From Rhodohalobacter barkolensis (lineage in GTDB: Bacteria > Bacteroidota > Rhodothermia > Balneolales > Balneolaceae): a DNA stretch of 64,000 nucleotides. The position numbers were made by a program, and so were the translations under genes. Positions 39,590-57,152 of the stretch are shown one piece after another. The number at the start of each line of letters is the position of its first letter. Position 1 is the first letter of the stretch. Below the pieces are notes generated by a model that was not told the DNA's origin, made no database searches, and saw only the letters and a program-made list of their open reading frames with translations. The stretch spans positions 1-64,000 of the forward strand of contig NZ_PISP01000006.1 in assembly GCF_002834295.1 (NCBI RefSeq). Reading direction: 5' to 3'.

Positions 39590-41238
39590 GTAGTGAGAAT
39601 CGAGTCTTGAGTATTGAGAAATCTCCCCTCGAGGGGAGTGCCGAAGCGAAGCACAGGCGAGGGGTATTCGTCAGGACCCACCCCTTGATCCCCTCCCTAT
39701 CACACCAAAATCAGCGTGACATGGATGGGGAACTCGAAAATCACCTCTTGCCTGTCCCGAGTAATTCGGGGAGAGGAGACAGATTACGGATCATCCAGCT
39801 AAGTGATCAGGAGTGTGTTAACGGGTTTTCTAACCACGATGATTTTCGGTCGAAGCTAAGTGTACGTTCCGAACACACCCCTAAATCCCCTCTCAAGAGG
39901 GGACTTCTGATAACCATTGCTGTGTTGATTGTTATTTTTACGGGAGCATTTACAAATACACTGCATGCGCAGGGTTTTGAGTCATCTCCAAATCAGGAAA
40001 ACACCCCTCTAAGTCTCCCCTTATTAGGGGAGACTTCTCAATACCCACAACTCGAAGAGTATCTCCAGATTGCCATTGAGCAAAATCCTGAGTTACAATC
40101 TCTTCAGTTTTTATTTGAAGCCGAAAGAGAAAGAGCCAATGAGTTTGGGGTAATGCCGGACCCGGAGTTGAACATCAATTACGATTTTAATCCAATGATG
40201 TCCGAATCGCGTCTGGGCCGATTTTCTGTTTCTGCAATGCAGATGTTTCCTTGGTTTGGTACACTCGGTTCAAAAAAAGAGGCGCAGCAATTTTCGGCCG
40301 AAGCTCAACGATCAATGATTGACAGTCGTCAGCTTGAAATTCTACGGGACATTCAGATCACTTGGTTTGATATCGCTGAAGTTGAAGAGCAGATTAGAAT
40401 TGCCGATGAAACATTCAAACTAGTCGGTGATTTGGAGCAGCTGGTGGAAATCAGATATGAGACGGCAAGCACCGGTCAGGCAGATATTCTGCGAATTCAG
40501 ATGGAAAAACAACGAATCCAAAACCGTATAGAAAATCTTGAAGACAAACTCTGGCCGCTTCGGGCAAAGTTTAATGAACTCTTAAACCGGGAAACCGGTG
40601 AAGAGGTCATTTCGGCTGAACCGCAACAGCAAGCAGAGCTTCCATACTCTGCTGAGGAGATTGCGCAACTGGCTAAAAATCAAAATCCAGTGTTTGAAAC
40701 TCTGAGTCTTCAGGAATCTGCACTTCAACAACAGGAACGCACGGCAGAGCTTAGCGGACGTCCCTCCTTTGGAATCGGACTTGAAGTGATGGGAAGAGAT
40801 TTTGGCCCAATGTCGATGTTTCCGGATTCGAAGGAGAGTTTTATCGGAATGGCTACTATTCGGCTGCCGATCTACCGATCCCGAACCAAATCCCAAAAAC
40901 AGCAGATTTCGAGCCGGCTTCAAGCTGTAGAGATGGAGCGGGTTCAAGCCGAAAACAGAATATCATCCGATCTGGAATCGACCCAGGAAACGTTACGGTC
41001 ATCCAACCGATCTATTGAACTTTTAGATAATGAGCTGATCCCGAGAGCGCGACAGGTGCTCGATATTCTGAGTGAAGAGTATACTTCAGGAAATGCCCGT
41101 TTCGACGAACTGTTGCAAATCCAGCGGGAACTGCTCGATCTGGAATTTGAGCGGGTTGAGGCGGTTGTAAACCAGAACAAAGCCATGGCAAGAATTGAAC
41201 GATTGGTCGGGGGGCTGAGGAATGAGTTTCGAGATTGA
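39586..41238 (+). CDS. TolC-family outer-membrane efflux protein, 5' end altered by repeats
   Basis: The frame is 550 residues long. The TolC fold starts about residue 155 (LEEYLQIAIEQNPELQSLQF) and runs through two coiled-coil halves (AMQMFPWFGTLGSKKEAQQF; ATIRLPIYRSRTKSQKQQI). The first ~105 residues look like translated intergenic repeats, and a signal peptide (LLITIAVLIVIFTGAFTNTLHAQ) begins only at about 107. The frame overlaps cusA at its ATG, but that start would bury the signal peptide; a downstream GTG or TTG (39922/39925), preceded by AGAGGGGA, may be used. A second palindrome lies in frame after the signal peptide. Outer-membrane channel of the pump. Confidence 0.85.
   Translation: MSSENRVLSIEKSPLEGSAEAKHRRGVFVRTHPLIPSLSHQNQRDMDGELENHLLPVPSNSGRGDRLRIIQLSDQECVNGFSNHDDFRSKLSVRSEHTPKSPLKRGLLITIAVLIVIFTGAFTNTLHAQGFESSPNQENTPLSLPLLGETSQYPQLEEYLQIAIEQNPELQSLQFLFEAERERANEFGVMPDPELNINYDFNPMMSESRLGRFSVSAMQMFPWFGTLGSKKEAQQFSAEAQRSMIDSRQLEILRDIQITWFDIAEVEEQIRIADETFKLVGDLEQLVEIRYETASTGQADILRIQMEKQRIQNRIENLEDKLWPLRAKFNELLNRETGEEVISAEPQQQAELPYSAEEIAQLAKNQNPVFETLSLQESALQQQERTAELSGRPSFGIGLEVMGRDFGPMSMFPDSKESFIGMATIRLPIYRSRTKSQKQQISSRLQAVEMERVQAENRISSDLESTQETLRSSNRSIELLDNELIPRARQVLDILSEEYTSGNARFDELLQIQRELLDLEFERVEAVVNQNKAMARIERLVGGLRNEFRD
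39613..40036. repeat. in-frame palindromic repeats within the TolC gene
   Basis: Three palindromes of the CCCCTC family lie inside the open frame: CTCCCCTC/GAGGGGAG (39623-39638), TCCCCTCT/AGAGGGGA (39886-39903), and a perfect 11-bp stem AAGTCTCCCCT/AGGGGAGACTT (40011-40036). The first two encode the segments SPLEGSAEAKHRRGVF and TPKSPLKRG. The third encodes TPLSLPLLGET in the mature protein, without breaking the frame. Confidence 0.75.
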
Positions 41239-41249
41239 GGAAAATCATC

Positions 41250-41295
41250 ATCAGGCGTTCCCCTCCTTTCCAAGGAAGGGAAGTGTTACACAACA
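41250..41295. repeat. palindromic repeat between TolC and adaptor genes
   Basis: GCGTTCCCCTCCTTTCCAAG followed by GAAGGGAAGTGTTACAC, the same family as at 35.5 and 39.6 kb, with an imperfect stem. It fills the 84-base gap before the adaptor gene. Confidence 0.6.
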
Positions 41296-41322
41296 TTTTA
41301 TCACAGTTAAATCAACAACAAA

Positions 41323-43137
41323 ATGAACATCACAAAAACCCAATATCTCACATACGCATCTGTCCTGATAACAGGAATCATTCTCGGATGGCTCTTTTTC
41401 GGCGGATCAAGCACTGTCCAGAATGACCATGAAGGTCACGAGCATGAACAGGTTACGAATGAATCAGGCGAACAGGTCTGGACTTGCTCCATGCACCCTT
41501 CCGTTCGTGAAGATGAACCCGGATCTTGCCCGATTTGCGGAATGGACCTGATACCCGCCTCTTCCGAAGAACGTGAGGATGACTACAGCATGGTGATGAC
41601 GGAAGCCTCCATGCAGCTTGCAGACATCCAGACAACACCCGCAGTACGTGAACAGCCCGTGCGGGAAATTCATCTGCCCGGACGTGTTGAAATTGATGAA
41701 CGGCGAATCAGTTATGTCACCGCTCACTTTGAGGGACGGGTACGGGACGTCAAAATTGACTTCACCGGTGCTCCCATTCGAAAAGGGGAAGTAATGGCAA
41801 CCATATACTCTCCTGATTTAGTCAGTGCACAGCGCGAGCTGCTTCAGGCCGTTCAGGTACAAGATAGAAATCCACAACTCTATGAGGCTGCAGTGCGAAA
41901 GTTTAGGCTTTGGGAGTTCTCTGATGAACAGATTCAGACCATCATAGATCGAGGTGAAGTTCAAACCAATATGGAGATTCTCTCTCCGGTAGACGGTTTT
42001 GTGATGAAGCGAAATGTGGTGGATGAGCAACACGTGATGGAAGGAACCGTCATTTATGAAGTTGCTAACCTGGACCAGCTCTGGGTTACACTGGATGCAT
42101 ACGAAGAGGACATTCCCTGGATTACGGAAGGAAATGAAGTCACTTTCCAGACCCGATCCAATCCCGGGCAGGATTATCAGGCTACCATCGATTTTATTGA
42201 TCCGGCCTTTGATCCCCAAAAAAGAACCATCCGTCTAAGGGCAAATGTGGAGAATGGAGATCACTCCCTGCGACCTGACATGCTTGTACGTGGAACTGTT
42301 CAGGCTGAAGAAAGTGAAGAGAAAATTCTCGTACCGGTTTCTGCCGTTCTGTGGACCGGGCCAAGATCTCTCGTTTATGTAAAAGATCCATCTGCCGAAA
42401 CCCCACGCTTTGAAGTACGTGAGGTAGAACTGGGAGCTCAAGCCGGAGATTATTACATCATTGAAAGCGGCCTCACTGAAGGTGAAGAAGTTGTATTCAA
42501 TGGAAATTTCCGTATCGACAGTGAGTTTCAGCTCGCCGATCGCTTCAGCATGATGAACCGTGAGCCGGGAAGCGGAGCAGTTCCGGCAGGACATCAGCAT
42601 GGAGGCTCGGATATGGACGAAAGTGCAATGGAGGAAGAAGATCACAGCGAACACCAGTCTGAAGCAAGTATCGGAGAGGAAGAAAATGAAGTTGATGAAG
42701 CATTTCGTGAAGAGTTTACCGAATTGCTGGAGAACTACCTTACGCTAAAAGATGAGCTAATAGAGTCTGATCTGGAAAGTGCAGTAAACTCAGCTACTGA
42801 TTTGATTACTCAATTAGAAGAGATCGGAGAACACCGCCTGGAAGGTGATTCCCATGTAGCCTGGATGGAAAGTTATTCCGCTATTATGGATCATGCCGAA
42901 AGTATGAGCAATACCGATGACATTGAGGAGTACCGGGAAGCATTCAGCCGGTTGTCTGATCAACTCATTGAGGATGTAAAAACCTTTGGTATTGAGGGAG
43001 TGGTTTATCACCAATACTGCCCCATGGCGTTTGATAATGAAGGGGCTGATTGGCTGAGCAGAGAAGAACAGATTCGAAATCCGTATCTGCCGGAGAATAT
43101 GTTAACCTGTGGAGAAGTGATTGATTCGATCGAATAG
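41323..43137 (+). CDS. cusB: RND periplasmic adaptor (CusB-like) with heavy-metal-binding and DUF3347 domains
   Basis: 604-residue membrane-fusion protein. The N-terminal anchor (SVLITGIILGWLFFGG) is followed by His-rich HEGHEHEQ and a heavy-metal-binding domain (about 53-78: WTCSMHPSVREDEPGSCPIC then GMDLIP). Next come the barrel-sandwich/lipoyl and hairpin parts (LPGRVEIDERRISYVTAHFE; ILSPVDGFVMKRNVVDEQHV) and the beta-barrel region (VPVSAVLWTGPRSLVYVKDP). After a Met/His/acidic linker the C-terminus (about 455-604) is a DUF3347-like domain (LLENYLTLKDELIESD ... VYHQYCPMAFDNEGADW). It would link CusA to TolC and hand over metal. Confidence 0.92.
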   Translation: MNITKTQYLTYASVLITGIILGWLFFGGSSTVQNDHEGHEHEQVTNESGEQVWTCSMHPSVREDEPGSCPICGMDLIPASSEEREDDYSMVMTEASMQLADIQTTPAVREQPVREIHLPGRVEIDERRISYVTAHFEGRVRDVKIDFTGAPIRKGEVMATIYSPDLVSAQRELLQAVQVQDRNPQLYEAAVRKFRLWEFSDEQIQTIIDRGEVQTNMEILSPVDGFVMKRNVVDEQHVMEGTVIYEVANLDQLWVTLDAYEEDIPWITEGNEVTFQTRSNPGQDYQATIDFIDPAFDPQKRTIRLRANVENGDHSLRPDMLVRGTVQAEESEEKILVPVSAVLWTGPRSLVYVKDPSAETPRFEVREVELGAQAGDYYIIESGLTEGEEVVFNGNFRIDSEFQLADRFSMMNREPGSGAVPAGHQHGGSDMDESAMEEEDHSEHQSEASIGEEENEVDEAFREEFTELLENYLTLKDELIESDLESAVNSATDLITQLEEIGEHRLEGDSHVAWMESYSAIMDHAESMSNTDDIEEYREAFSRLSDQLIEDVKTFGIEGVVYHQYCPMAFDNEGADWLSREEQIRNPYLPENMLTCGEVIDSIE

Positions 43138-43418: not shown

Positions 43419-45209
43419 ATGATGTTCTCTATTCGTTCTCTCTGCTTTCTTTTACTGACTCTGTTTTTCGGCATCATCACTGAACTTGCTTTATCACAGC
43501 CAAGGCAGCCTGTTGATTTTGAAGGTTTCCGTTCCGCATTGGATGAAGCCCAATCAGATGATGAAAAGCTCGAATCTTATATTTCTTTCTCATTTACAGA
43601 ATTTCGAAATATTCCGGACTCTCTGTTCAAAATTGCACAAGAGATAGAAACTCTGGAGCAGGCATCAGCGAAAAGAAAAGATGCCTATCGCAATTTTGTG
43701 CTTGCCTTTGCCTGGCGGCAAAGTAACCGCGACTCTTCTCGCAATTATGCAGAACGTGCATCCGATCAGTTAAAAGAGTTGAATAACCACGTGAACTACT
43801 TACGGTCTCAAAATCTACTGGGTTCTGAGTATGCCCGCTATGGCAATACTTTAGGTGCAGAAGCTGTTTTTATGCAGGCTTTGGAGTATCAATCGGAAAA
43901 TGAAGTAACAGACTACCCGGAGCACTTTTTCTATGGAAACCTGGGAAACATTTACTCACGTGTAGGCGCGTACGATCTGGCTGTAGAGATGTACCGGTAT
44001 GTTTTGGACAACAGTGAAAGATCATCAGACCGGTGTAATATCCTCTCAACACTGGCGGTAAATCTCTCCAGGCTTGAAAACTATAAGCGTGCCCAAGAAA
44101 CGCTTTCCCCCTGTTTGGATGAAGAAGATCTCATTCCACCTATTGCTTCTGTAGTTCAGTCAAATATGAGCCAAATCATGCTCGACTCCGGTGATATCAC
44201 ATCAGGATTGAAATATTTGGAACAGGCCGCAGCTATCAGCTTCGAAAATCGTGTTCCAAATATGGAGCTGGCTCATCAAGTCAGATTGGGAAGGCTCTAT
44301 CTTGAACAAGACATGCTGGATGAAGCCGAGGAGATTGAGATTAGAATCCTTGATGATCGGTTCAGATCTGGTCCACCAAATATTTTAATCGATAAGCATC
44401 TGTTTCTGGCAGAACTAAGCAGTCTGAGACGTGATTATGATGATGTGTTGTCATATTCGAATCGAGCTATCGCACTTGCCCGGCAAATGAATATGACCCC
44501 GCTTTTAAAAGATGTTTACTCTCTGCGATCCGAGGCATATATCGGATTGGACAACTTGGATGAGGCGATTGATGCCGCAAACAGTCAGATTGAACTAACT
44601 ACGAATATCAGCCGACAGAAAGAGAATCAGGAGCTTGCTAATGCGAAAGTCCGCCACCAGCTCATTCAGTACGAAACAGAATTAGCAAGTTCGCAAACAG
44701 TTTTAAACAACTTAACCAACCAATTGGGAGTTGTTGGAAGTCTGTTTTTACTACTAAGTCTCGGATCAGGATTTCTCTACTATCGATATTCCAATTCCAA
44801 AGCTGAACAAGCCCTTGCCATAAAAAAACTTTCCGAAAGTGAGACCCGAAGGAAAGAGCTTGAATTGGCCATCAAAAAGCAAAAAGAAATTTTTGATAAG
44901 AAGGACACCCAGGTTTTTGTCCATATAAACAGCAGCTTAATGCTTGCTGTTGAAGATATCCGCTACATTCAATCTGATGGAAACTACGTTCGTATCTTTC
45001 TTGCCGATGAGAATAAACCTCCTATCCTTGAACGATGCACTCTCAAACATTGCGAATCCATTTTACCTGAAGATTACTTCCGAAAAGTTCACCGGTCTAC
45101 GATTGTAAATCTACTTCACATTGTTCAGGTTGATGGTGAACATCTTACGCTCAAGGATGGAACCACAATTAAAATGGCCCGGCGAGCCAAGAAAGAGTTT
45201 TTCACATAA
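43419..45209 (+). CDS. TPR-transmembrane-LytTR transcriptional regulator
   Basis: 596 residues. Signal/anchor segment (FLLLTLFFGIITELALS), a periplasmic TPR region (about 30-440; GNLGNIYSRVGAYDLAVEMY is one unit), one TM helix (about 440-465, VVGSLFLLLSLGSGFLYY), a coiled coil, then a cytosolic LytTR DNA-binding domain (about 495-596: AVEDIRYIQSDGNYVRIFL ... YFRKVHRSTIVNLLHIVQVD). This is a one-component membrane regulator, typical of Bacteroidota. ATG ATG gives two possible starts. Targets unknown; the copper operon upstream and the phospho-signalling operon downstream are candidates by proximity only. Confidence 0.9.
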   Translation: MMFSIRSLCFLLLTLFFGIITELALSQPRQPVDFEGFRSALDEAQSDDEKLESYISFSFTEFRNIPDSLFKIAQEIETLEQASAKRKDAYRNFVLAFAWRQSNRDSSRNYAERASDQLKELNNHVNYLRSQNLLGSEYARYGNTLGAEAVFMQALEYQSENEVTDYPEHFFYGNLGNIYSRVGAYDLAVEMYRYVLDNSERSSDRCNILSTLAVNLSRLENYKRAQETLSPCLDEEDLIPPIASVVQSNMSQIMLDSGDITSGLKYLEQAAAISFENRVPNMELAHQVRLGRLYLEQDMLDEAEEIEIRILDDRFRSGPPNILIDKHLFLAELSSLRRDYDDVLSYSNRAIALARQMNMTPLLKDVYSLRSEAYIGLDNLDEAIDAANSQIELTTNISRQKENQELANAKVRHQLIQYETELASSQTVLNNLTNQLGVVGSLFLLLSLGSGFLYYRYSNSKAEQALAIKKLSESETRRKELELAIKKQKEIFDKKDTQVFVHINSSLMLAVEDIRYIQSDGNYVRIFLADENKPPILERCTLKHCESILPEDYFRKVHRSTIVNLLHIVQVDGEHLTLKDGTTIKMARRAKKEFFT

Positions 45210-45259: not shown

Positions 45260-47470
45260 TCAGTATTCGGTGATTACCAGTGTTGCATTGACTGTTTCGT
45301 TATAAAAAGTACCAATCCAGATATTGTATAAACCTTCCTCCGGATCTTCAAATACAACTCCGGGATTAATACCTTCTAAATCATCACTAAAGTACCACTC
45401 GCCGTTTGGTGCATTTATCAATAATACCGTGTCATCATTACTTTCAGCTTTTATGGTAAGCGGTAAGCTTCCCGGTGTATAATAGAAGTCAAACGAAGGC
45501 TCTATGGTTACATACCCACTGTAACCCATTTCAGACAGATCGTATGACCCTGACAGACTAATCGATTGAGTATAAGGATCCGGTGAAAACCCGGCCTCTA
45601 AAGTAATATCTCCTCCGATTGGTATTTCTCCTACGTCAGGCCCGCCTTCACTATCCACATAAATATCATCATCCTCTTCATACAGCACTTCAGAAACTTT
45701 CACCAGGGCGCTGCCGGCTGTCTCTTCATAACTGCCCACCCAGATCATATAGGTTCCGCTTTGAGGATCTTCAAATTCTACGCCGGGATTGTACCCAACA
45801 AAATCATCATTGAAGTACCATTGATCATCCGGCCCATAAACCAGCATTATAAGATCGTTATCGGCCTCTGCACTGATAAAAAGTGGATAAGCCCCTGAAT
45901 TATATTCTAAGTGAACGGTTGCCGGTGATGTTGTGAATCCAAAATAATTGAAGTTTTCAAGGTCGATATTTGGACTCAACTGAACGGAATGCGGCCAGGG
46001 ATCGGGGGTAAAGTCGCTGTCTAAGGTAATCGTTCCCTGAAGCGGAGCCGCGGTAATGTCCGGACGAGACCGTCTCTCTTCCAGCTCTCGCTGTCTCTCT
46101 TCCTCTTCGCGCCGGATCCTATCGGCTTCCTCACGTTCACGCTGTTCGGCGAGTTCTCTTTGGCGTTCTTCACTCGCCAACTGATCTATTTCGGCCTGAC
46201 GAGCAATCTGCTCAATCTCCTCCTGCACTTCGAGCATCTGTTGCTCCACATCTTCATTCTCCGGCATGATTTCCAGAGCCTGTTCATAGAAACTTACAGC
46301 CCCCTCTAAATCATCCGTTGATCTTGCTTCGTCTGCCTGTTGAACCAATTCTGCCACAGCCTGTTGGTTGGCTTCCTGTTCGGCCAGCCTCTGTGCTTCA
46401 GCACTGTTCTCTGTCATCAGATAAAATCCACCCGCCGAGAACACAACAATCAGTAATACGGCTGCAATAATCCATGTTTTCATCGAATCGGAACCTCCCC
46501 GGCTCTGTTTTACCTTTTTGGGAGTTTGTATTCCCTTCTTCGTTTTTGCACTGCCTGAAGCAGATTGTTGTGGAAGTTGTGCCGACTCAATTTTTTGTGT
46601 TTTTCGTCCACCTCCAACTTTTGGAGTCTTGGCCTTCGGTATTTTAATTTCAGGCCAGTGCCCCGTTTCCATATACTTTTGCGTAACCTCTTTTAAATCC
46701 CCGGATTTTGGCCTTTCTCCCGGGTTAGCACTCATCATCAATTTAACGAGATTTTTAAAGCGGGATGAGAAGTGATCGGGTAGCTCAGGAACTTCCGCAC
46801 CGCTGTTCAGACTAATTCCGCCGTTGCCCATCCAGGGCACATTTCCTGTTGCCAGCTCATACACCAATACACCGAGAGAGAAAATATCACTCGCCTCCAT
46901 ATTTTCAGGATTCGCAGTAAAACGTTCGGGCGGAGCATAGGCTATTGTCATCGATTTTGAACTTCCCGTATGCTTTCTCAGTGTACTTCTCAATCTTCCG
47001 CTGATTCCAAAATCCGTCAACAAGTAGGAACCGTTGCCGTCAATTAAAATATTATCCGGTTTGATATCCTGGTGGAGAATATCCTTGCTGTGCAGATACT
47101 GCAAACCTGCAGAGATCTGTGCCAGCAACTTCGCCAGCTCATCCTCATCCATATTGCCCTTTTCAATAAGACGTCCCTGAAGTGAACCGCCCTCAATAAA
47201 TGGCATCACCAGGTAGGGCCGCCCTTCCCAAACATCAAAGTGACGGGCTGTAAGCAATACGGGATGATTGAGGTTTAAAACAACAGCATATTCACGCCGG
47301 AACTGCTTCAGCCCGTGCTGATCCATCCCTTTATCCGGGGCATAAATTTTGATCGCAACGGTTGCGTTTTCAGCCATCTGGTCATTTGCCTTCCAGACTT
47401 CAGAGAATCCCCCGATTCCAATTCTTTCAATGAGCAGATAGCGATTTGCAAATAGTGTATTTGGTTCCAT
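45260..47470 (-). CDS. membrane Ser/Thr protein kinase with coiled coil and two tandem extracytoplasmic repeats
   Basis: 736 residues, last gene of the seven-gene operon. The kinase domain (about 10-270) has G-loop RIGIGGFSEVWKA, K41 in VAIKIY, a catalytic loop reading HQDIKPDN (HRD Arg changed to Gln; such kinases often do not need activation-loop phosphorylation) and LTDFGISG. A basic linker follows, one TM (332-351, TWIIAAVLLIVVFSAGGFYL), a Glu/Arg-rich coiled coil (357-470), then two copies of a ~110-residue beta-rich domain (about 483-600 and 620-736). Each copy has a DSDF/EAGF-PDP start and a WYF-DD..G-NPGV-FEDP block. Kinase faces the cytosol; repeats would sense in the periplasm. Confidence 0.9.
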   Translation of the reverse strand: MEPNTLFANRYLLIERIGIGGFSEVWKANDQMAENATVAIKIYAPDKGMDQHGLKQFRREYAVVLNLNHPVLLTARHFDVWEGRPYLVMPFIEGGSLQGRLIEKGNMDEDELAKLLAQISAGLQYLHSKDILHQDIKPDNILIDGNGSYLLTDFGISGRLRSTLRKHTGSSKSMTIAYAPPERFTANPENMEASDIFSLGVLVYELATGNVPWMGNGGISLNSGAEVPELPDHFSSRFKNLVKLMMSANPGERPKSGDLKEVTQKYMETGHWPEIKIPKAKTPKVGGGRKTQKIESAQLPQQSASGSAKTKKGIQTPKKVKQSRGGSDSMKTWIIAAVLLIVVFSAGGFYLMTENSAEAQRLAEQEANQQAVAELVQQADEARSTDDLEGAVSFYEQALEIMPENEDVEQQMLEVQEEIEQIARQAEIDQLASEERQRELAEQREREEADRIRREEEERQRELEERRSRPDITAAPLQGTITLDSDFTPDPWPHSVQLSPNIDLENFNYFGFTTSPATVHLEYNSGAYPLFISAEADNDLIMLVYGPDDQWYFNDDFVGYNPGVEFEDPQSGTYMIWVGSYEETAGSALVKVSEVLYEEDDDIYVDSEGGPDVGEIPIGGDITLEAGFSPDPYTQSISLSGSYDLSEMGYSGYVTIEPSFDFYYTPGSLPLTIKAESNDDTVLLINAPNGEWYFSDDLEGINPGVVFEDPEEGLYNIWIGTFYNETVNATLVITEY

Positions 47471-47475
47471 AACTG

Positions 47476-48789
47476 TTATTTCTGATTAATAACTACTTTT
47501 AGAGTTGTATCCCCGATGGCGATAATATCCCCGGGTTTAAGTTTTTTCCCACCTTCATCAATACGGCTGCCCTGTACCAGAACCCCGTTTGTTGACCGGT
47601 ACCATCCCGGCACTCCGCCTTTTTCTCTCCACTGTCCATCCCGGATGTACCAGTGATAGTCATCACTGTTGTATTCAAGTGTGGCGTGAAAATTGGAGAT
47701 ATACTCCGTGAAATATTCGGCTATACCGATGTCGTTTGAAAAGGGGTTTTCGGTATTGAACCAGCCGATGGTAAGCACCCCGGCTGATTTTGAATTCTTT
47801 AAATTTGTCAGGTGATATTCACGCCCGATCTCTTCTCCATTTTGAACCCGTAACACCCAGTCCGATTGTGGATATACTTCCGGACCCGGCTCTTCGCGGA
47901 CCGGTTGATAACCCAATACAGACAATACTTCATCTATGGTCCCAAACCGATCTTCCGGCCGGTATCGAATACATCTGGAAATGATCTCCACCCATTTTTG
48001 ATCCGGTGAGCTCTTTTCAAGTGCAGCGCGATCCCACTTCTCTTCCTTTTTTTTCTGCTCATAAGCCGCCATATCTTTCATAAACTCCTCAAAAGGCCCA
48101 AAGGGCAACCGGCCTCCGGTAATCAGCTCATACATCATGGCGCCGAACGCGTAAACATCATTTGACGGGCCCATCACTTTCATCGCCTGCTTCGGGTCAA
48201 TCTGTTCAGGGGGTGAGTAGGTACCCGTGGCAAAAACCTCTTTGGCATGTCCCATAAAATTGGCAACCGTGTGGCGCTTCTTGATGGAAGCAGAAATTCC
48301 AAAATCGGCCAGTTTTGGGACTCTGTTCTCATCGAACAGAATATTTTCCGGTTTGATGTCTCTGTGGATAATTCCTTCATCATGCAGGTCTTTCAAGCCC
48401 ATCAAAATACCGTGAGCGATCTCATCCAGTTTTTGAGAACCGAACGTTTTCCCAACCAGGTCGCGCAAATTCCCGCCGGTACAGAGATCCATCACCATGA
48501 ATGGATTTCCCTCCAGCATATCAAAATCGTGGCTGCGAACAATGTAGGGGCTGGTAATCCTGGATCCGTAGTCGTACTCTTGGCGAAACCTTTTGGCAAA
48601 TTCAATTCGCTCGTGCGGCATAAAGGTCCACATCTTGGTCAGCTTCAACGCGTACAGATTCTCCATATCGCTGATCTGGTACACACTGCCAAAGCCGCCC
48701 TCACCCAGCTCATTTTCAACCCGGTAAGTCGCTTTTTTCGAAGCAACTTTACTGCCTCTGTCGATATGTATAACTCCGGGTGAACTCAT
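47476..48789 (-). CDS. Ser/Thr protein kinase with C-terminal FHA domain
   Basis: 437 residues, no TM segment. Kinase motifs are complete: G-loop ELGEGGFGSVYQI, K49 in YALKL, IIHRDIKPENI (142-151) and LADFGIS. The C-terminal ~110 residues form an FHA-like phosphothreonine-binding domain (LTIGWFNTENPFSNDIGI ... SNFHATLEYNSDDYHWYIRD ... TNGVLVQGSRI). The usual FHA GR and S-R/KH residues are only partly kept (SNFHA), so phosphopeptide binding is probable, not certain. The start overlaps the stop of the upstream FHA/zinc-ribbon gene by four bases. Confidence 0.92.
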   Translation of the reverse strand: MSSPGVIHIDRGSKVASKKATYRVENELGEGGFGSVYQISDMENLYALKLTKMWTFMPHERIEFAKRFRQEYDYGSRITSPYIVRSHDFDMLEGNPFMVMDLCTGGNLRDLVGKTFGSQKLDEIAHGILMGLKDLHDEGIIHRDIKPENILFDENRVPKLADFGISASIKKRHTVANFMGHAKEVFATGTYSPPEQIDPKQAMKVMGPSNDVYAFGAMMYELITGGRLPFGPFEEFMKDMAAYEQKKKEEKWDRAALEKSSPDQKWVEIISRCIRYRPEDRFGTIDEVLSVLGYQPVREEPGPEVYPQSDWVLRVQNGEEIGREYHLTNLKNSKSAGVLTIGWFNTENPFSNDIGIAEYFTEYISNFHATLEYNSDDYHWYIRDGQWREKGGVPGWYRSTNGVLVQGSRIDEGGKKLKPGDIIAIGDTTLKVVINQK

Positions 48790-49505
48790 TCTTCGCTTTC
48801 AGGGATTTCTACCCTGAATACCTTATCTCCTAAAATGATTAATGACCCGCTTTCAACAGTCGTCTTACCCTTTACCTGTATAAAAGTCGCCCCGTTACTG
48901 CTTTTATCTTCGAGCGTCCATTTTCCATCTTTATGGGTAAATGTTGCATGTTCTTTCGAAGAGATGGAGCTGTTCTCCGGAGCCAGGTTCGTTCGATTCA
49001 GTGATATTTTTTCACCTTCATATGCCTGCTCAGCATTCTTATTTTCATCAACCAGAATCAGTTTGGGTTTTGGAGCCTCTTTGGAAATATTAACCTGCCC
49101 AATTCTCATTGTCTTTGCGCCGGATGGTGCTGCCGGTTTTGATTTTTCAGGCATGGGAGCAGGTTGCTCTTTGCTTAGAGATTCATCACTCCCTTTATAT
49201 CCGCAATTTGGACAGGGGCTATCGCTGGCAGGTTTGTTACGCAGGGGGTAGTAGCCGCAGGCATCGCACTTTAAGATGCTCGCATCCACGGGCTCAGACA
49301 TCTTCTTTGGTGATGCATTCTCACCATCCCATGCAGGAGCGGAAGCGACTTTTCCCCGTACGGTTGCCGCACCCTGGTCGCCTGAACTTGCTGCAGGATT
49401 ACTTTGAGCCTGACCACCACTGCCTGAAGACGTCAGTTTTGTGCCGCATTTTACGCACACTTTCACGTCTGATTGATTCTGATATCCACATTCGTAACAT
49501 CTCAT
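48786..49505 (-). CDS. zinc-ribbon plus FHA domain protein
   Basis: 239 residues, cytosolic. Two CxxC..CxxC zinc ribbons (CYECGYQ ... CVKCG at 3-21, and CDACGYY ... CPNCG near 78-101), a disordered Ser/Pro-rich linker, then an FHA domain at about 145-239. The FHA part has SLNRTNLAPENSSISSKEHATF, WTLEDKSSNGATFIQVKG and GSLIILGDKVFRVEI. The FHA core Ser-x-x-His and Ser-Asn-Gly are present. An adaptor that binds phosphothreonine on partner proteins; ribbons may mediate protein contacts. It lies 11 bases after the PP2C gene. Confidence 0.9.
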   Translation of the reverse strand: MRCYECGYQNQSDVKVCVKCGTKLTSSGSGGQAQSNPAASSGDQGAATVRGKVASAPAWDGENASPKKMSEPVDASILKCDACGYYPLRNKPASDSPCPNCGYKGSDESLSKEQPAPMPEKSKPAAPSGAKTMRIGQVNISKEAPKPKLILVDENKNAEQAYEGEKISLNRTNLAPENSSISSKEHATFTHKDGKWTLEDKSSNGATFIQVKGKTTVESGSLIILGDKVFRVEIPESEE

Positions 49506-49516
49506 TGTATCGGGGT

Positions 49517-50917
49517 TTAGTTATTGACTTGTTTTTCGATTGAACCGGTTGAGGTCGTATCTGCCGTGCTATCAGCATTTGTGCTGTCAGGCAAAGCAGG
49601 CTGGGTACTCATGGTATCCTTAGGTTCTTGAATCTTTTTTCCGGGCTCTGTCAATGTTGTGTCTTTTTGAACCGGAGGAATCTGCTGTCTGACAGAATCT
49701 TTTTCTTCCTCTGAAGGCCTCTCGGCGTTTCCGGGTGGAAGTGGGCTTTGTTCATCCGGTGTTTCTGAAGGTTCTTCAGCAGGTTCAGGATCAGGATCAG
49801 CCACCGGTGGTTGTTCTTCTTCAGGCGGATCAACATCTCCCGGCTCATCTTCAATTGGCGGGTCTTGATTCGTTTCTGCAGAATCAACCGGTTCCTCGGT
49901 CTGACCGGTATCTCGATCTTGTATAACCGGATCTGCATTCGCCTCGGGTGATCTTCCATCAAAGTAAATCCAGGCGGCCAATACGGCTATTACCACAATC
50001 AAAACCCCGATCATCAAGCTCTTGGATGAGTTTTTCTTTCGCAGAATTTGTGTCGTCGTGGTTTTAGATTTGATTTGACTCTGTGCAGCCAGATCTGCTT
50101 CTGACGGTTCTGCTCCCTCATGCACTTCAAGCATCAGGCAAGTGATATTATCGCCGCCTCCGGCTTCATTGGCAGCTTTTATCAGCTTTCCGCAGGTTTC
50201 GTCAATGGGTCCGCCATCTTCCAGAACAGACTCAATCTGTTCATCACTCAGCATTCCATTCAGACCGTCACTGCACAAAATCAACTGGTTTCCCTTGTAG
50301 AGTTTTGTTGTTTTAACAGAGGGCTGAGGCGGGTTTTTTTCATCCCCCAGGCTTTGCGTAACAATGTTGCTCTCCGGATGAACTCTGGCCTCCTCGGGCG
50401 TCATATGATTCTCTTCAACCATCTGCCACACCAGGGAGTGATCTTCGGTAAACGGATAAAGTGGTTTGTATCCGTTATAGATGTAGCAGCGGCTGTCGCC
50501 CGACCACGCCACGTGAACCGAATCCTCCACTACCCAGGCAATAATGAGCGTTGTGCCCATTCCGGCCGTGTCGAGGTTTTTATGCTGATGGTTAACAACT
50601 GCCTGATGTGCTTTCAGAATAGAACGGGCAAGAAGGCCTTCCCGCTCTGATACGGAATCCGGGAGTTCATCGAGTGCGTCGAAATCCTCTTTTACCGTTT
50701 CCTGAGCCAGGTGAGAAGCCACTTCGCCGGCGTTCTCACCGCCCATTCCGTCGGCAACAATCAGAAGCGCACCCAATTCGGAAAGGGAGTGGACTTCACC
50801 TCGTTTAAACCCCCATTTATGATTGGACAGATCTTTACAGATCGCAAAATCATCTTCATTGTGAGTGCGGGAACGACCGACATCGGTAATTCCAAATATG
50901 GATATTTTTTTAATCAT
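49517..50917 (-). CDS. PP2C-type Ser/Thr phosphatase with TM anchor and extracytoplasmic tail
   Basis: 466 residues. PP2C motifs are complete: RSRTHNEDD (15-23), VADGMGG with D56, CSDGLNG with D217, and GGGDNIT with D256. One TM helix (301-319, LMIGVLIVVIAVLAAWIYF) follows a basic cytosolic stretch. The last ~145 residues are a low-complexity Pro/Glu/Asp-rich tail, predicted outside the membrane. The enzyme would remove phosphates added by the two kinases encoded downstream. The gap to the FHA-protease gene is 60 bases, the largest within the operon. Confidence 0.93.
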   Translation of the reverse strand: MIKKISIFGITDVGRSRTHNEDDFAICKDLSNHKWGFKRGEVHSLSELGALLIVADGMGGENAGEVASHLAQETVKEDFDALDELPDSVSEREGLLARSILKAHQAVVNHQHKNLDTAGMGTTLIIAWVVEDSVHVAWSGDSRCYIYNGYKPLYPFTEDHSLVWQMVEENHMTPEEARVHPESNIVTQSLGDEKNPPQPSVKTTKLYKGNQLILCSDGLNGMLSDEQIESVLEDGGPIDETCGKLIKAANEAGGGDNITCLMLEVHEGAEPSEADLAAQSQIKSKTTTTQILRKKNSSKSLMIGVLIVVIAVLAAWIYFDGRSPEANADPVIQDRDTGQTEEPVDSAETNQDPPIEDEPGDVDPPEEEQPPVADPDPEPAEEPSETPDEQSPLPPGNAERPSEEEKDSVRQQIPPVQKDTTLTEPGKKIQEPKDTMSTQPALPDSTNADSTADTTSTGSIEKQVNN

Positions 50918-50977
50918 CCCGTGTGCTCTTAACCGCGATTTAAATTTTGATTACTCATTATCTGGCGACCCGGATAA

Positions 50978-52546
50978 TTAAAAATTTATTAGTGGCGTAA
51001 CCATCTTTATTGAAGTAGGTGTGTAAATTACGTCACCCCCTTCTGATATCGTTGCCTGCTGATACCTTCCTGTCACAAGACCGATCGCCGTTGGTACCCC
51101 GTTATTCATCGTCAATACGGGCCCTCCTGAGTTCCCTGAATCCCAGCCGGCTTCGGTGACATGTACCGTACCATCCTGAATACCTGACAAGGTCACTTTT
51201 GCCGTTGAAAAATAGGGCTCAAGATTTCCTTCAACCCTGTACTCTGCACCGTACGAATATCCCAATACAAACAGATCTGTACCGTTTCTCAGATTTTCCG
51301 ACAACGGCTTATCAAATGCCATACCATCACTATAGTCGGTTTGCATGTACGCCCAATCGGCTCCTCTGAAGTATTCAGGTATTCTTATAGAACCCACCCC
51401 ATTACTGTTTGGCATTTCCCATGGAATGAATCTATCCATAGATTCATCCTGGATGAAATCTTTATTAGTAAACTCCAGGCTAAACTGACCATCATACGAT
51501 TGTGCAGTAAAATGAAATGAAGCGCTCCCACCACTGTGCTCTATTAAATTTGCCTGAAAAAACGAGCCTTCTTCAGTACTTGTTCCGTACATATCTATAC
51601 AATGCCTGGCCGTTACAAAAATTCCTCCCTCTATTAAAAACCCGGTGCACATTATATTTTCCTCCTGAATTTCGTACCCGTTTCGTTCTCCATCAAATTC
51701 TGTTACCCACCCTTTAATAGACATTGCCATTACATACGGCTTCAGTTCTTCAATTACGTCAGCATAGTTCACTCCACCGGATACATTTCTCAAGCTGTCC
51801 AGCTGTCGCTGGCTTCTCTCTTCAATGGCGGCTAATTCTCGTTCAAACTGTTCCCGCTCGCGGATCATTCTTTGCCTGTCCCGCTCGATTTGTTCTTGAG
51901 AAATCTGAAAATTTTCTGCAAGATCACTATTTCTCGCATTCAAGCTTGCGATAGAATCAGCCTGTGCTCGGCTGATTTGATTTTGTTCGGCAATTAACTC
52001 TCTCTGTAAATCGGTTTCCATAGTTAAGTTATAGATCATATAACCGGAACCACTCATTGCCAGAATGAAAATCATCAAAAATGAAACCGCCGCAGTTTTA
52101 TACGGCTTGATCGCCTGCTGCATCACTAGGTTCATCTTATTAGTAAATCCAATCTTTGCCGTTCCGGCTTTGGTGGTGTTATATCGCAACCTCGGCCCCT
52201 CAACAGAGAGCTGAATCTCATCCCCGTTATTCAAAAAATATTTATTCTGTACCGGCCGACCATTCACCAGCGTTGGGTTCGATTTGGACAGGTTGATGAT
52301 GAAGGTTTCATCCCCCTTGCGCTCAATAGCGGCATGCTTACGGCTAACCGTAGGTGTATCATCGCCAAAGGATACCCCGCATTTACTGTCACGCCCCAGT
52401 TCCACATAGGGAACAACAATGGTTTCGAATGAGCCCTGGTTTTTCTTTGCTGTAGATGTCAGATACTCTAGGGTATAGGTTGGAATATTGGCCCCGCTGA
52501 GAATTTTCATTCCCGTTCCAATAGATTGTGTAGCTCTGTTTGCCAT
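50978..52546 (-). CDS. FHA-TM-coiled-coil-trypsin-like serine protease
   Basis: 522 residues. An N-terminal FHA domain (about 42-125: ELGRDSKCGVSF, PTVSRKHAAIE with S68/R69/H71, and NPTLVNGRPV), TM helix (151-172), coiled coil (175-255, Arg/Glu/Gln-rich), and a C-terminal chymotrypsin-fold protease (265-522) with H315 in VTARHC, probable D397 in GADWAYM and S473 in GNSGGPV. Topology places FHA in the cytosol and protease in the periplasm, so phosphothreonine binding inside could control proteolysis outside. The protease substrate is unknown. Operon position four-fold linked to kinases and PP2C. Confidence 0.92.
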   Translation of the reverse strand: MANRATQSIGTGMKILSGANIPTYTLEYLTSTAKKNQGSFETIVVPYVELGRDSKCGVSFGDDTPTVSRKHAAIERKGDETFIINLSKSNPTLVNGRPVQNKYFLNNGDEIQLSVEGPRLRYNTTKAGTAKIGFTNKMNLVMQQAIKPYKTAAVSFLMIFILAMSGSGYMIYNLTMETDLQRELIAEQNQISRAQADSIASLNARNSDLAENFQISQEQIERDRQRMIREREQFERELAAIEERSQRQLDSLRNVSGGVNYADVIEELKPYVMAMSIKGWVTEFDGERNGYEIQEENIMCTGFLIEGGIFVTARHCIDMYGTSTEEGSFFQANLIEHSGGSASFHFTAQSYDGQFSLEFTNKDFIQDESMDRFIPWEMPNSNGVGSIRIPEYFRGADWAYMQTDYSDGMAFDKPLSENLRNGTDLFVLGYSYGAEYRVEGNLEPYFSTAKVTLSGIQDGTVHVTEAGWDSGNSGGPVLTMNNGVPTAIGLVTGRYQQATISEGGDVIYTPTSIKMVTPLINF

Positions 52547-52563
52547 AACTGTCGGTATTGGTT

Positions 52564-53316
52564 TTAATTAAAAGTAATGATCCCCGAATCGGGTATAGTT
52601 GCCGTGGATATGAGAACTTTTTCCTGCTCATTTGCCAATTCAATGGATTCATAAGACTCTACCCCGTTCCGGTGATAGATCGTTACCTCCGCCATCCCGT
52701 TTTCGGGATTCCCGTCTTCACACCCATTTCGTGAGAAGAGGTTTGTGTAGATTTCATAATCGCCCTCCTTCGGGGCCGCAATATTCCAGACCTCATAGCC
52801 GGGGCCACAGGTATTATCAACCGTCAGCTCACCCTCAACTCCCTCAAATGTTCTGCTGTTATACATGAACTCGTTTCCATCCGGATCTACTACATGAAGG
52901 TCCACATCGTGATTTGCTGTACTCCAGGACATCACTACAACCAGAAACCGTGCATCCCCTTCAATTTTTTCCAGATCTTCCTCACAACCGGCACGGCCCT
53001 GTTCACACTGTTCCAGTTCCTCACGTGTTGATTCAGCCTCTTCTTCCATCTCACGAATCTGCTGCTCCAACTCCTCAATCAATCTCAACTGATCTGCCGG
53101 CTCCTCCTCATCAAGCCTGGGAATCAATTCAGAAATCTCTTCAACTGATAAGCCAAGAGCCGCAATCTCCTCAGCAATGCGCTGTTGCTCTTCATACTCC
53201 TCAACCGGAACATCCATTTTGGGTACAATCACATATAAAATGATTACCGCCCCCAGTGCTCCCGAAAGCAGGTCCAGAAATGACGCCCCAAATACGTTAA
53301 TCTGCTTTTTAGCCAT
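52564..53316 (-). CDS. single-pass membrane protein with ExbD/MotB-like Asp, coiled coil and DUF2135-like domain
   Basis: 250 residues. The N-terminal helix INVFGASFLDLLSGALGAVI (continuing LYVIV) carries Asp15 at the position where ExbD/MotB-type stators keep their proton-binding Asp. A coiled coil follows (about 38-115, Glu-rich), then a beta-rich C-terminal domain (ARFLVVVMSWSTANHDVDLH, PDGNEFMYNSRTF, EGDYEIYTNLFSRNG) resembling DUF2135/YfaP. No peptidoglycan-binding OmpA domain. Its start overlaps the stop of the ExbB-like gene (TGATG), so the two are surely coupled. A stator partner role is inferred. Confidence 0.85.
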   Translation of the reverse strand: MAKKQINVFGASFLDLLSGALGAVIILYVIVPKMDVPVEEYEEQQRIAEEIAALGLSVEEISELIPRLDEEEPADQLRLIEELEQQIREMEEEAESTREELEQCEQGRAGCEEDLEKIEGDARFLVVVMSWSTANHDVDLHVVDPDGNEFMYNSRTFEGVEGELTVDNTCGPGYEVWNIAAPKEGDYEIYTNLFSRNGCEDGNPENGMAEVTIYHRNGVESYESIELANEQEKVLISTATIPDSGIITFN

Positions 53317-54134
53317 CAGGTCACATCAATTTTGTTGATGAAATGCTCAATCACATACTCTTCAATGTCGTGATGCAGGGTCTCAGTGGCCTCCTGTAGG
53401 CTGTGGTAGCTGAACATCATAATTAAGCTCAGGACCAGTGCAACGAGAGTAGTGTCAAATGCCACAGCAAGGGTTGATGTGATCAGGTCGATGTCTCCGG
53501 TATTGGCTATAGCCAGTGACTGGGAAATACCCAGAATGGTACCCACAAAACCGATGGACGGAATAGCCCATAAAAGGTACCGGATACCGGATTGGCGGCT
53601 TTCAGATTTATCCCTGTTGATCCGGCTTTGCGACTCCACAATCATAAAAGCAGACTCGGCAGACTGATTGGCCCTGAATTTTGTACACGCCTTTTTTACG
53701 ATCTGCAGAAGAAAGTAATCTTCGCCTTGACCCTCACTGTACTTCTGCTGAAGATATTGGCTGATTCGAAGACGAATCTTATTGATTTCGGTTTCCCCGA
53801 TCACTCTGTGCTCCTCTTCCGGCAGTAATTCAGTAGAGAAATAGGCCCGCTCAAATCGATTTTTTCTGCTTTGGAAACGGATCTCCAATAGCCCCCACAC
53901 AAAACAGAAAATGGTGATAAACTGAACATATCCACCGGCTGACAGACTCCCGCCCAGCAGGATGGAGATGCGGTGCAGTGAAGGAAAGATTTCACTTCCT
54001 GTGTTGATGTAAATGAGAACGATAATCGCCTGGATAAATAAGGCCGTTGCAAATGCCAGTAGTACCCTGTTAGCCCGATCCAGCGAGTTCGATGATTTTG
54101 TCAAAATAGTGCTGTTGAATGATCCTTTGCCCAA
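53316..54134 (-). CDS. MotA/TolQ/ExbB-family proton-channel subunit
   Basis: 272 residues, first gene of the operon. Four predicted TM segments: about 24-43 (NRVLLAFATALFIQAIIVLI), 70-85 (FITIFCFVWGLLEI), 187-208 and 225-245. The two C-terminal helices contain the ExbB/TolQ signature IPSIGFVGTILGISQSL and AFDTTLVALVLSLIMMF, with a large cytosolic region between helices 2 and 3. Family members use ion flow to drive work across the envelope. With the Asp-bearing partner next to it this is a complete minimal stator pair. No TonB or flagellar genes are near. Confidence 0.88.
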   Translation of the reverse strand: MGKGSFNSTILTKSSNSLDRANRVLLAFATALFIQAIIVLIYINTGSEIFPSLHRISILLGGSLSAGGYVQFITIFCFVWGLLEIRFQSRKNRFERAYFSTELLPEEEHRVIGETEINKIRLRISQYLQQKYSEGQGEDYFLLQIVKKACTKFRANQSAESAFMIVESQSRINRDKSESRQSGIRYLLWAIPSIGFVGTILGISQSLAIANTGDIDLITSTLAVAFDTTLVALVLSLIMMFSYHSLQEATETLHHDIEEYVIEHFINKIDVT

Positions 54135-55088: not shown

Positions 55089-57152
55089 ATGAAAAACAAA
55101 TCCGAAGCACACTCAAATCAACCAAATAATCATTCAGTAAAAGATGATCATAGTCCTGACGGTCATGATCACCACGATGAAAACGATCACGGTGACCACT
55201 CCCACCACGACCATCACAAAATGATGGTACAGGATTTCAAATTCCGTTTCTGGTGGGTGCTGGCCTTAACCATTCCGATTCTTGCACTCTCGCCTATGAT
55301 TCAACAGTTCATGGGAGTGGATTGGAGTTTTTCCGGTGACGAGTGGATTTTGGCCGCTCTCTCCACCGTGGTATTCTTCTTTGGCGGATGGCCGTTTTTA
55401 ACAGGCTTGGTGGATGAGCTTAAGGAAAAACAGCCCGGTATGATGACCCTCATCGGGCTGGCGATATCGATTGCCTACCTCTACAGTACAGCCGTTGTGT
55501 TTGGGTTTGAAGGAGATCTGCTTTACTGGGAGCTTGCCACACTGGTGGGCATCATGCTATTGGGCCACTGGGTCGAGATGCGGTCGGTAATGAGCGCATC
55601 ATCTGCTTTGGAAGAGCTTGCCGAATTGATTCCCGGAGAAGCACATTTAGTTAAAGAGGATGGATCTACCGAAGATGTATCCGTCGATCAGCTTCAAAAA
55701 GGAGACAAGGTTCTGATCAAACCCGGAGAAAAAGTACCGGCTGATGGGATTGTAGTTGATGGAAAATCCAGCGTTAATGAAGCCATGCTTACCGGAGAAT
55801 CCAAACCGGTGGATAAAACCGATGGGGACGAAGTCATTGGTGGGTCGGTCAACGAAAAAGGATCACTCACAATTGAAATTTCCAAAACTGGCGATGATTC
55901 TTTTCTATCGCAGGTCATGAACCTGGTGAAAGAGGCGCAAGAGAGCAAATCCAAAACACAGGATCTTGCCAACCGGGCAGCGTTTTGGTTAACAATCATT
56001 GCTATTACCGCCGGACTTCTCACCTTTGGAGCCTGGATATTTTTTACCGGCGAGAGTTTCGATTTTGCCATGAACCGAACCGTGGCCGTAATGGTGATTA
56101 CCTGTCCGCACGCGCTGGGACTGGCCATACCGCTGGTTGTGTCAATGTCTACCAGTATTGCCGCTTCTAACGGATTCCTGATCCGAAACCGTGTTGCTTT
56201 TGAACAGGCGCGAAACCTGGACGCTGTAATTTTCGACAAAACCGGAACGCTTACCGAAGGTACATTTACCGTTACCGATATCCTGAATTTTGACGATGAA
56301 TTTTCTGATGACGAAATCCTGAAATATGCTGCCTCGCTCGAAACCAACTCCGAGCACCCACTGGCCAAAGGGATTTTAGAAAAAGCGGACGACACGTTTG
56401 ATGTAGAAGAATTTGATTCCATTACCGGAAAAGGAATTCAGGGCAGGGCAAACGGTAAATCGGTGAAAGTCGTGAGTCCGGGCTACATTCGGGAACAGGA
56501 GATAAACTATCCTGAAGAACAGGTTGAAGAGATTTCTTCACAAGGAAAAACGGTCGTGTTTGTGGTGATTGACGACTCCCTGGCCGGAGCGATAGCCCTC
56601 GGAGATCAGATCCGGGAGTCGTCAAAAAGTGCAATCAAAGCCCTGCATGAGATGGGCATTGAGTGCATCATGCTGACCGGCGATAATCAACAAACCGCTG
56701 AATATGTGGCCGGTGAACTTGACATGGATCAGGTATTCGCTGAGGTGCTACCGGATGAAAAAGCCGATAAAGTGAAAGAGGTACAGGGACAGGGCAAACT
56801 CGTAGCCATGACCGGCGACGGTGTGAATGACGCTCCTGCTCTTGCAACTGCCGATATCGGAATTGCCATTGGCGCCGGATCGGATGTAGCGGTAGAGACC
56901 GGTGATATCGTGCTTGTTAAAAACAACCCGAAAGATGTGACAGCACTGATCAAGCTATCGAAGTCAACTTATGGGAAAATGGTACAAAATCTGTTCTGGG
57001 CTACCGGTTACAACGTAGTGGCCATTCCGCTTGCGGCCGGTACTCTCTATGCCTGGGGAATTATTTTAAGTCCTGCCGTGGGAGCAATTTTGATGTCGCT
57101 CAGTACGGTGATTGTAGCGATTAATGCGCGGCTCTTGAAGTTGGAAGAGTAG
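55089..57152 (+). CDS. copB: CopB-like P1B-type ATPase (CPH subclass), copper export
   Basis: 687-residue P-type ATPase. The N-terminal ~45 residues are His/Asp-rich (HDHHDENDHGDHSHHDHHK), the typical CopB metal-binding tail, with no CxxC domain. The membrane metal site reads C339-P340-H341 (ITCPHALGLA), defining the CPH/P1B-3 subclass linked to Cu(II)/Cu(I)/Ag. The phosphorylated Asp is D383 in DKTGTLT; TGES, TGDN and GDGVNDAPAL are intact. It would pump copper from the cytosol. This is the second copper-related locus in the window, 12 kb from cusA. Confidence 0.93.
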   Translation: MKNKSEAHSNQPNNHSVKDDHSPDGHDHHDENDHGDHSHHDHHKMMVQDFKFRFWWVLALTIPILALSPMIQQFMGVDWSFSGDEWILAALSTVVFFFGGWPFLTGLVDELKEKQPGMMTLIGLAISIAYLYSTAVVFGFEGDLLYWELATLVGIMLLGHWVEMRSVMSASSALEELAELIPGEAHLVKEDGSTEDVSVDQLQKGDKVLIKPGEKVPADGIVVDGKSSVNEAMLTGESKPVDKTDGDEVIGGSVNEKGSLTIEISKTGDDSFLSQVMNLVKEAQESKSKTQDLANRAAFWLTIIAITAGLLTFGAWIFFTGESFDFAMNRTVAVMVITCPHALGLAIPLVVSMSTSIAASNGFLIRNRVAFEQARNLDAVIFDKTGTLTEGTFTVTDILNFDDEFSDDEILKYAASLETNSEHPLAKGILEKADDTFDVEEFDSITGKGIQGRANGKSVKVVSPGYIREQEINYPEEQVEEISSQGKTVVFVVIDDSLAGAIALGDQIRESSKSAIKALHEMGIECIMLTGDNQQTAEYVAGELDMDQVFAEVLPDEKADKVKEVQGQGKLVAMTGDGVNDAPALATADIGIAIGAGSDVAVETGDIVLVKNNPKDVTALIKLSKSTYGKMVQNLFWATGYNVVAIPLAAGTLYAWGIILSPAVGAILMSLSTVIVAINARLLKLEE

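Follow-up and report, generated by a model that had tools for sequence, protein, structure and literature searches.

A rare and modular operon of predicted kinases, a phosphatase, FHA proteins, a protease and an ExbB/ExbD-like pair in Rhodohalobacter barkolensis

In Agrobacterium, PpkA of the type VI secretion system (T6SS) phosphorylates TssL at Thr14, and binding of Fha to the modified protein activates secretion (PMC3953482). The KKP system consists of a PP2C phosphatase, a kinase fused to an FHA domain and a second kinase, and defends against phages (PMC11341870). A single protein that joins FHA and trypsin was recorded in Bacteroides thetaiotaomicron in 2008 (NP_811686.1, of FHA-FHA-trypsin type; PMC2605481). 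Here, we describe an operon in which comparable parts stand together. It lies on the minus strand, at positions 45260–54134, of a 64,000-nucleotide stretch of Rhodohalobacter barkolensis DNA (positions 1 to 64,000 of contig NZ_PISP01000006.1, assembly GCF_002834295.1; hereafter, the window), and its seven genes are transcribed in the order ExbB, ExbD-like protein, FHA-transmembrane (TM)-trypsin, PP2C-TM, zinc-ribbon-FHA, kinase K2 and kinase K1. As judged from sequence comparison, the operon is a genuine signalling unit that is conserved, modular and rare. In our preferred interpretation, to which we give slightly less than an even chance, it is a portable membrane phosphothreonine switch, like that of the T6SS pathway, attached to other envelope parts. 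A search of titles and abstracts in the open-access literature (with subscription journals outside its scope) found no description of the operon.

An earlier note on this DNA had described seven minus-strand genes that overlap or lie no more than 60 bases apart, and open reading frames are indeed present at those positions, with spacings of 5, −4, 11, 60, 17 and −1 bases from K1 to ExbB. Domains were called by Pfam, NCBIfam and PADLOC scans of the seven proteins, and topology was taken from hydropathy. The two kinases, the PP2C phosphatase and the three FHA proteins of that description all have Pfam matches above the cut-offs. K1 (45260..47470) is a Ser/Thr kinase (Pkinase, E = 2.5e-46) followed by a linker, a TM segment near residue 333, a TPR/coiled-coil part and tandem PPC-like periplasmic domains; it has HQD in place of HRD. 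K2 (47476..48789) is a cytosolic Ser/Thr kinase (Pkinase, E = 4.2e-45) with a C-terminal FHA domain, and is 61–65 per cent identical to the five other operon copies with which it was aligned (G720, G548 and G691 left out). The phosphatase (49517..50917) matches PP2C_2 above the cut-off (E = 6e-14) and the NCBIfam Stp1/IreP PP2C model below that model's cut-off (E = 4.8e-64), and carries a C-terminal TM segment near residue 301 and a low-complexity periplasmic tail. The catalytic motifs of K1, K2, PP2C and the protease triad are all intact in the window, and the three Pfam FHA matches have E-values of 7e-15, 1.8e-8 and 2e-4.

The FHA-trypsin protein (50978..52546) has a cytosolic FHA domain, a TM segment, a coiled coil and a periplasmic trypsin-like protease domain that matches both Trypsin and Trypsin_2 above the cut-offs. 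The proposed tethering of a protease to a cytosolic FHA domain thus holds in the predicted topology, with FHA and Trypsin on either side of the TM segment and the triad intact. Across seven aligned sequences (G720 and G548 left out), the FHA pocket residues, H315, D397, S473 and the cysteines C300 and C316 are invariant. The two cysteines flank the active-site histidine and presumably resemble the chymotrypsin disulfide, which fits the predicted periplasmic protease. The zinc-ribbon-FHA protein (48786..49505; Pfam Zn_Ribbon_1 and FHA) consists of a zinc ribbon, a second CxxC/CxxC pair, a linker and an FHA domain, an ArnA-like architecture with four CxxC motifs in all; by sequence it matches only two PDB entries, both of them ArnA (E = 9e-6 and 1e-5, over residues 2–99). 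The phosphate-pocket residues are kept in two of the three FHA domains, those of FHA-trypsin and zinc-ribbon-FHA.

The FHA-trypsin gene is rare. A profile search at E = 1e-15 recovered it from 3 of the 244 genomes examined in the class, from 2 of the 394 sampled across the phylum and from 6 of the 198 genomes related to G540; within the orders to which G540 and G588 belong, the counts were 3 of 12 and 3 of 5, respectively. These sets overlap and together hold nine genomes with the gene, several of them drafts. The gene-neighbourhood check that the earlier note had proposed speaks for linkage and not for independent occurrence, as the order FHA-trypsin, PP2C, zinc-ribbon-FHA, K2, K1 is found in eight of the nine. 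Six copies are complete in this core (the window, G223, G540, G541, G691 and G588), and in two it is cut off where the contig stops (within K1 in G418 and within K2 in G720). All seven genes stand in window order in G223, six of them at 39–65 per cent protein identity by best segment and ExbD at 35 per cent, and G418, of the same genus as the window, follows the window order until its contig ends. An eight-gene form is present in G540 (metagenome-assembled genome RI_201) and G541, with an added protein of ~260 residues between FHA-trypsin and PP2C; this protein (L036, 13366–14163; L052, 7714–8487) begins with a signal-like segment and matches no Pfam family. The eight-gene form minus ExbB/ExbD occurs in G691, G588 and, to its contig end, G720. 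In G548, a partial FHA-trypsin gene at a contig end is followed by genes for a 282-residue protein and PP2C and then by a gene on the opposite strand.

The flanking genes differ among the window, G223, G418, G540, G541 and the G588/G691 pair. That the genes form a self-contained set is borne out to the extent that the same core order recurs in these varied surroundings and that, among the 394 genomes, the profiles of FHA-trypsin and zinc-ribbon-FHA both hit strongly in the same two; the zinc-ribbon-FHA profile found one further genome of that sample, G351, with a partial match. A contig scan across genomes with two patterns gave two loci. It could be argued that these genes are only loosely transcribed together and do not act jointly, but order kept at 35–65 per cent protein identity, short or negative spacings and varied flanks make this explanation very improbable. 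In an unrooted operon tree of seven copies (without partial G548 and truncated G720, and with no housekeeping control), G418 groups with G223, which belongs to another family, with a support of 0.997. This grouping suggests that the operon may have moved horizontally. A looser relative on a Rhizobium leguminosarum plasmid encodes two PP2C proteins, two kinases, an FHA protein, ExbB and an ExbD with a similar tip, together with a protein with FHA and a weak vWA match below the cut-off.

ExbB is present in five of the nine genomes, always followed by ExbD and FHA-trypsin. The window protein (53316..54134, 272 amino acids), of the ExbB/TolQ/MotA type, matches Pfam MotA_ExbB (E = 8e-12), contains the motifs IPS[IV]GF[VI]GT and AFDTT found in all five sequences, and has PomA as its sole match among sequences of solved structures (E = 0.004). 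The TTG start annotated at 54134 is in doubt: in G223, the ortholog starts at about residue 16, which is probably also the true start in the window. The ExbD-like partner (52564..53316) combines a TM helix with Asp15, a coiled coil and a periplasmic DUF2135/YfaP-like beta domain. The Pfam scan gave it no credible family, only weak coiled-coil matches. Its single N-terminal TM helix contains FLDLLSGALGAVI, the aspartate of which is kept in all five sequences, the window included, and 31 of its first 33 residues are the same in G223. The note's MotA/ExbB-type channel with an Asp-bearing partner is therefore upheld, as a MotA_ExbB domain paired with a single-TM partner with a membrane aspartate is the arrangement of ExbB/TolQ/MotA motors; ion flow is predicted. 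Distant ExbB relatives on cyanobacterial plasmids (L034, L035) adjoin CRISPR III-B/viperin genes or helicase/SLATT/methylase genes, and are possibly an unrecognised defence motor.

The ExbD tip (~70 residues) matched eight records among plasmid proteins, four unnamed and four named YfaP or DUF2135, the latter at 38–43 per cent identity. The predicted model of the ExbD-like protein is of low confidence (pLDDT 58 for the whole). Among structural matches to the low-confidence tip model (52567–52962), a protein of unknown function ranked first (Z = 8.0) and TerD proteins second to fourth (Z = 8.0, 8.0 and 6.9), at values where best Z-scores of 7–8 are common generally; superposition of this model on TerD 2qz7 gave a root-mean-square deviation of 3.4 over 116 aligned residues, and profile comparison with TerD gave a probability of 22 per cent. 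Among the five genomes with ExbB and ExbD, the tip is DUF2135-like in three cases and a vWA domain in two (just under the Pfam cut-off in G540 and above it in G541). The vWA domain follows the single N-terminal TM helix and is thereby predicted to be periplasmic. The absence of vWA claimed in the earlier note is true of the window but not of these orthologous operons. The outer part of K1 varies similarly: it is PPC-like in the window and G223 (a model of window residues 470–736, pLDDT 66, resembles PPC/collagen-binding domains with Z ~10), and the G223 protein carries an additional carboxypeptidase-regulatory-like domain. In its place, G540 and G541 have ankyrin, and G588 and G691 have MORN. 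On these domain assignments, the periplasmic ends of ExbD and K1 are exchanged between lineages.

A connection with T6SS is found elsewhere in the phylum. None of the nine FHA-trypsin genomes (several of which are drafts) has a match to the sheath gene VipB (PF05943) or TssC (PF17541), the latter being added because VipB may miss the Bacteroidota type; TssC was found in the positive control, G351, whose sheath is PF17541. In G351, a locus of the T6SS subtype iii (T6SSiii; L064, L066) has TssC PF17541 and TssD PF17642 above the cut-offs, with TssK, VgrG and ClpB/ClpV-like ATPase matches under the NCBIfam cut-offs. The same locus encodes zinc-ribbon-FHA, PP2C, FHA-TM and FHA-FHA-TM-trypsin proteins (TM segments by eye), a K2 homolog (29–30 per cent identity over its length, E = 4e-55) and three other kinases, one of which looks like a TM kinase. 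The view that the operon stands apart from T6SS accordingly agrees with the sheath search of the nine genomes but not with this related set. We make no case for shared descent of the FHA-trypsin proteins of G351 and the window, as the FHA part alone aligns, and their likeness may be convergent.

The operon could instead derive from T6SSiii control, as a relic or side branch that has come to regulate unrelated targets in trans, with the protease and ExbB/ExbD as passengers. The homologous K2 and zinc-ribbon-FHA of G351, the sheath gene not found in nine genomes and the optional ExbB/ExbD agree with such an origin. However, the active-site and FHA motifs of FHA-trypsin, the protein through which the genomes were identified, are retained, as are the order and the catalytic motifs of the neighbouring genes, which counts against a relic because relics decay, and one T6SSiii locus alone does not give the direction of descent. 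We regard this origin as unlikely.

For the phosphothreonine switch that we prefer, we infer control by phosphorylation, the switch gating the periplasmic protease and, optionally, the motor. K1 would respond to a periplasmic cue by way of its exchangeable outer domain, and four proteins (K1, PP2C, zinc-ribbon-FHA and FHA-trypsin) would be phosphorylated by K1, K2 or both on short Thr motifs of their cytosolic linkers. The FHA domains of FHA-trypsin and zinc-ribbon-FHA, whose pockets are intact, would then dock on these motifs, in keeping with known FHA chemistry, and cluster the membrane proteins. Clustering across the membrane would turn the trypsin-like domain, and the ExbB/ExbD motor where present, on or off, and the membrane-anchored PP2C would reset the switch. 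A wider interpretation is possible, though we doubt it: a phosphorylation-gated envelope machine with a fixed cytosolic circuit, interchangeable periplasmic heads, and the protease, the ExbB/ExbD motor and a cousin T6SSiii as outputs, in which transmembrane FHA recruitment would drive outside work from the cytosol.

Candidate phosphothreonines were sought in the linkers with a post hoc motif. In the window, it is represented on the minus strand by T-Q-K-I in the K1 linker (T291; 46589..46600), T-Q-I-L next to the PP2C membrane segment (T289; 50042..50053), T-A-K-I next to that of FHA-trypsin (T129; 52151..52162; present in all eight long sequences), and T-M-R-I (T132; 49101..49112) and T-V-R-G (T48; 49353..49364) in the zinc-ribbon-FHA linker, where both threonines are invariant in the six aligned sequences (G720, G548 and G691 left out). 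Of the 31 linkers of the four proteins, 24 contain the pattern T-[QMVAI]-[KRIV]-[GILVM] (K1 4/6, PP2C 4/9, FHA-trypsin 8/8 and zinc-ribbon-FHA 8/8, with truncated G418 K1 and G548 FHA-trypsin left out); in 2000 rounds of shuffling, the number of motif-bearing linkers averaged 2.45 and never exceeded 12.

Several observations weigh against the phosphothreonine switch. Phosphorylation, FHA binding and protease activity in the operon are predicted only. The linker pattern was picked after seeing the data, from orthologs that are not independent, and its strict form is missing from five of nine PP2C and two of six K1 linkers; because of this post hoc choice and relatedness, we treat the enrichment as a lead, not proof, and the linker threonine motif as a candidate FHA-docking site. 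The three FHA proteins were expected to be readers, which suits the two with intact pockets but not K2, in which GW replaces GR in six of eight sequences (the remaining two are a truncated copy and one that lies outside the FHA pattern). Moreover, the K2 homolog of G351 is a pseudokinase by motif and, given the missing arginine, K2 may not be a writer in every relative. The alignment of the G351 FHA-protease to the window protein is confined to FHA, and no kinase gene follows PP2C within the G548 locus. Finally, ExbB was not found in four of the nine genomes (some of them drafts), and therefore the motor cannot account for all of the output; the putative ion-driven part of the machine imagined in the earlier note is encoded in five genomes but is not essential.

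The scattered occurrence of the operon, and a tree that departs from genus membership, would also suit an anti-phage or toxin-antitoxin-type defence module, KKP-like with a membrane arm, in which kinases toxic without PP2C are held in check and the protease or motor executes. The protection against phages reported for KKP (PMC11341870) and PADLOC matches of five proteins to defence models point the same way: K1 and K2 match mad6 (E = 3e-61 and 7e-53) and PD-T4-6 (2e-50 and 8e-46), PP2C matches PDC-M21C (2e-9), the protease RT-Protease_XI (4e-6), and ExbB ZorA2 (2e-6, over the MotA part alone). So do the plasmid neighbourhoods of the cyanobacterial ExbB relatives and a 1255-residue WD40 protein (L052, 14589–18356), caspase-like in its C-terminal part by eye, which is encoded next-but-one to the G588 operon. 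However, kinase and PP2C matches are expected of any such domain, and in NCBIfam the mad6 model scores 138, far short of its cut-off (460). There was no strong nuclease match and no ZorB, ZorC, ZorD or ZorE model among the non-kinase proteins (for the two kinases, 25 of 34 matches were listed), and Pfam gave no cold-shock domain. The identified flanking genes are mainly metabolic, transport or envelope genes (some by eye), and a single scan of viral contigs with the FHA-trypsin pattern found no relative. We judge a defence role improbable. A mobile-element origin was rejected on the same viral scan, on the GC content given below and on a plasmid search with FHA-trypsin, which gave one weak match in the FHA part alone.

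In the window, CusA/CusB-like metal efflux genes (35810–43137) and a copper P-type ATPase gene (55089–57152) lie on opposite sides of the operon, and in G541 a gene with a heavy-metal-associated (HMA) domain (L049, 14785–15297) lies just beyond K1 on the opposite strand. These neighbours would be expected if the operon were an envelope- or metal-stress sensor tied to them, with the copper efflux genes pointing to a metal role. Yet no metal gene was recognised beside the operon in G223, G418, G540, G588 or G691 (partly by eye), and we hold this explanation to be quite unlikely.

The GC content in 2-kb bins is 46–48 per cent within the operon, inside the range of the flanks (42–48 per cent). Promoter-like sites are at chance level (17 versus 15.6 expected); terminator-like sites exceed shuffles (18 versus 9.7), the majority within operon genes. 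One on the operon strand, ~70–85 bases beyond the K1 stop (45189–45175), could be the end of the operon transcript. A TPR-LytTR protein gene found by Pfam scan (43419–45209) is convergent with K1. Elsewhere in the window are another Ser/Thr kinase gene, with a TPR-like C-terminal part (16895–19597), and two copies of the Acido-Lenti-1 RNA (RF01687; 24601–24646 and 25093–25138), ~490 bases apart.

If the phosphothreonine switch is real, the kinase/FHA/phosphatase circuit of T6SS would be a general, portable controller for other envelope machines. The operon would then offer a simple route to study how phosphorylation in the cytosol might gate a motor driven by ions or a protease of the periplasm. 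It would also give roles to the little-studied zinc-ribbon-FHA, FHA-TM-trypsin and DUF2135-tipped ExbD families.

Set against known systems, the operon shares a TM kinase, PP2C and FHA readers with the T6SS threonine-phosphorylation pathway, and differs from it in its ExbB/ExbD (in five of nine genomes), its membrane-anchored PP2C and the lack of a sheath gene in the nine genomes searched. With the G351 T6SSiii set, it has in common homologs of K2 (a pseudokinase there) and zinc-ribbon-FHA, and that set has an FHA-FHA-TM-trypsin protein. TerY-P, which we take to be a cytosolic TerY vWA gene with PP2C and a kinase, does not fit, as Pfam found no vWA among the seven window proteins. Nor does Zorya, which we take to be ZorB plus ZorC/D or ZorE: no such model matched the non-kinase proteins at E = 0.1. 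The MotA_ExbB domain and single-TM Asp partner are nevertheless common to Zorya ZorAB and to ExbBD/TolQR motors, from which the window differs by the length of its ExbB (272 residues, with no long tail) and by a partner tip that is DUF2135-like or, in relatives, vWA. As in KKP, PP2C is followed by two kinases, one of which (K2) has a C-terminal FHA domain. However, the adjacent triplet of 900–1300-bp genes described for KKP (PMC11341870) is not found, as zinc-ribbon-FHA intervenes and the K2 and K1 genes measure 1314 and 2211 bp; K1 lacks, by Pfam, the cold-shock domain mentioned there for a kinase, and the window operon further differs by its membrane K1 and PP2C and its added protease and motor. 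In the archaeal ArnA/ArnB/ArnC system (PMC12852372), ArnA has the architecture of zinc-ribbon-FHA, but the match is weak and in the zinc-ribbon half, and the window has no vWA. NP_811686.1 has two FHA domains as opposed to one in the window protein, and the accessible part of its source describes no operon (PMC2605481). By predicted gene content, the operon is not a member of T6SS, KKP, TerY-P or Zorya; given the related set in the G351 T6SSiii locus, the known logic that it most resembles would be that of KKP and of the T6SS threonine-phosphorylation pathway, with an ArnA-type reader and uncoupled from T6SS itself.

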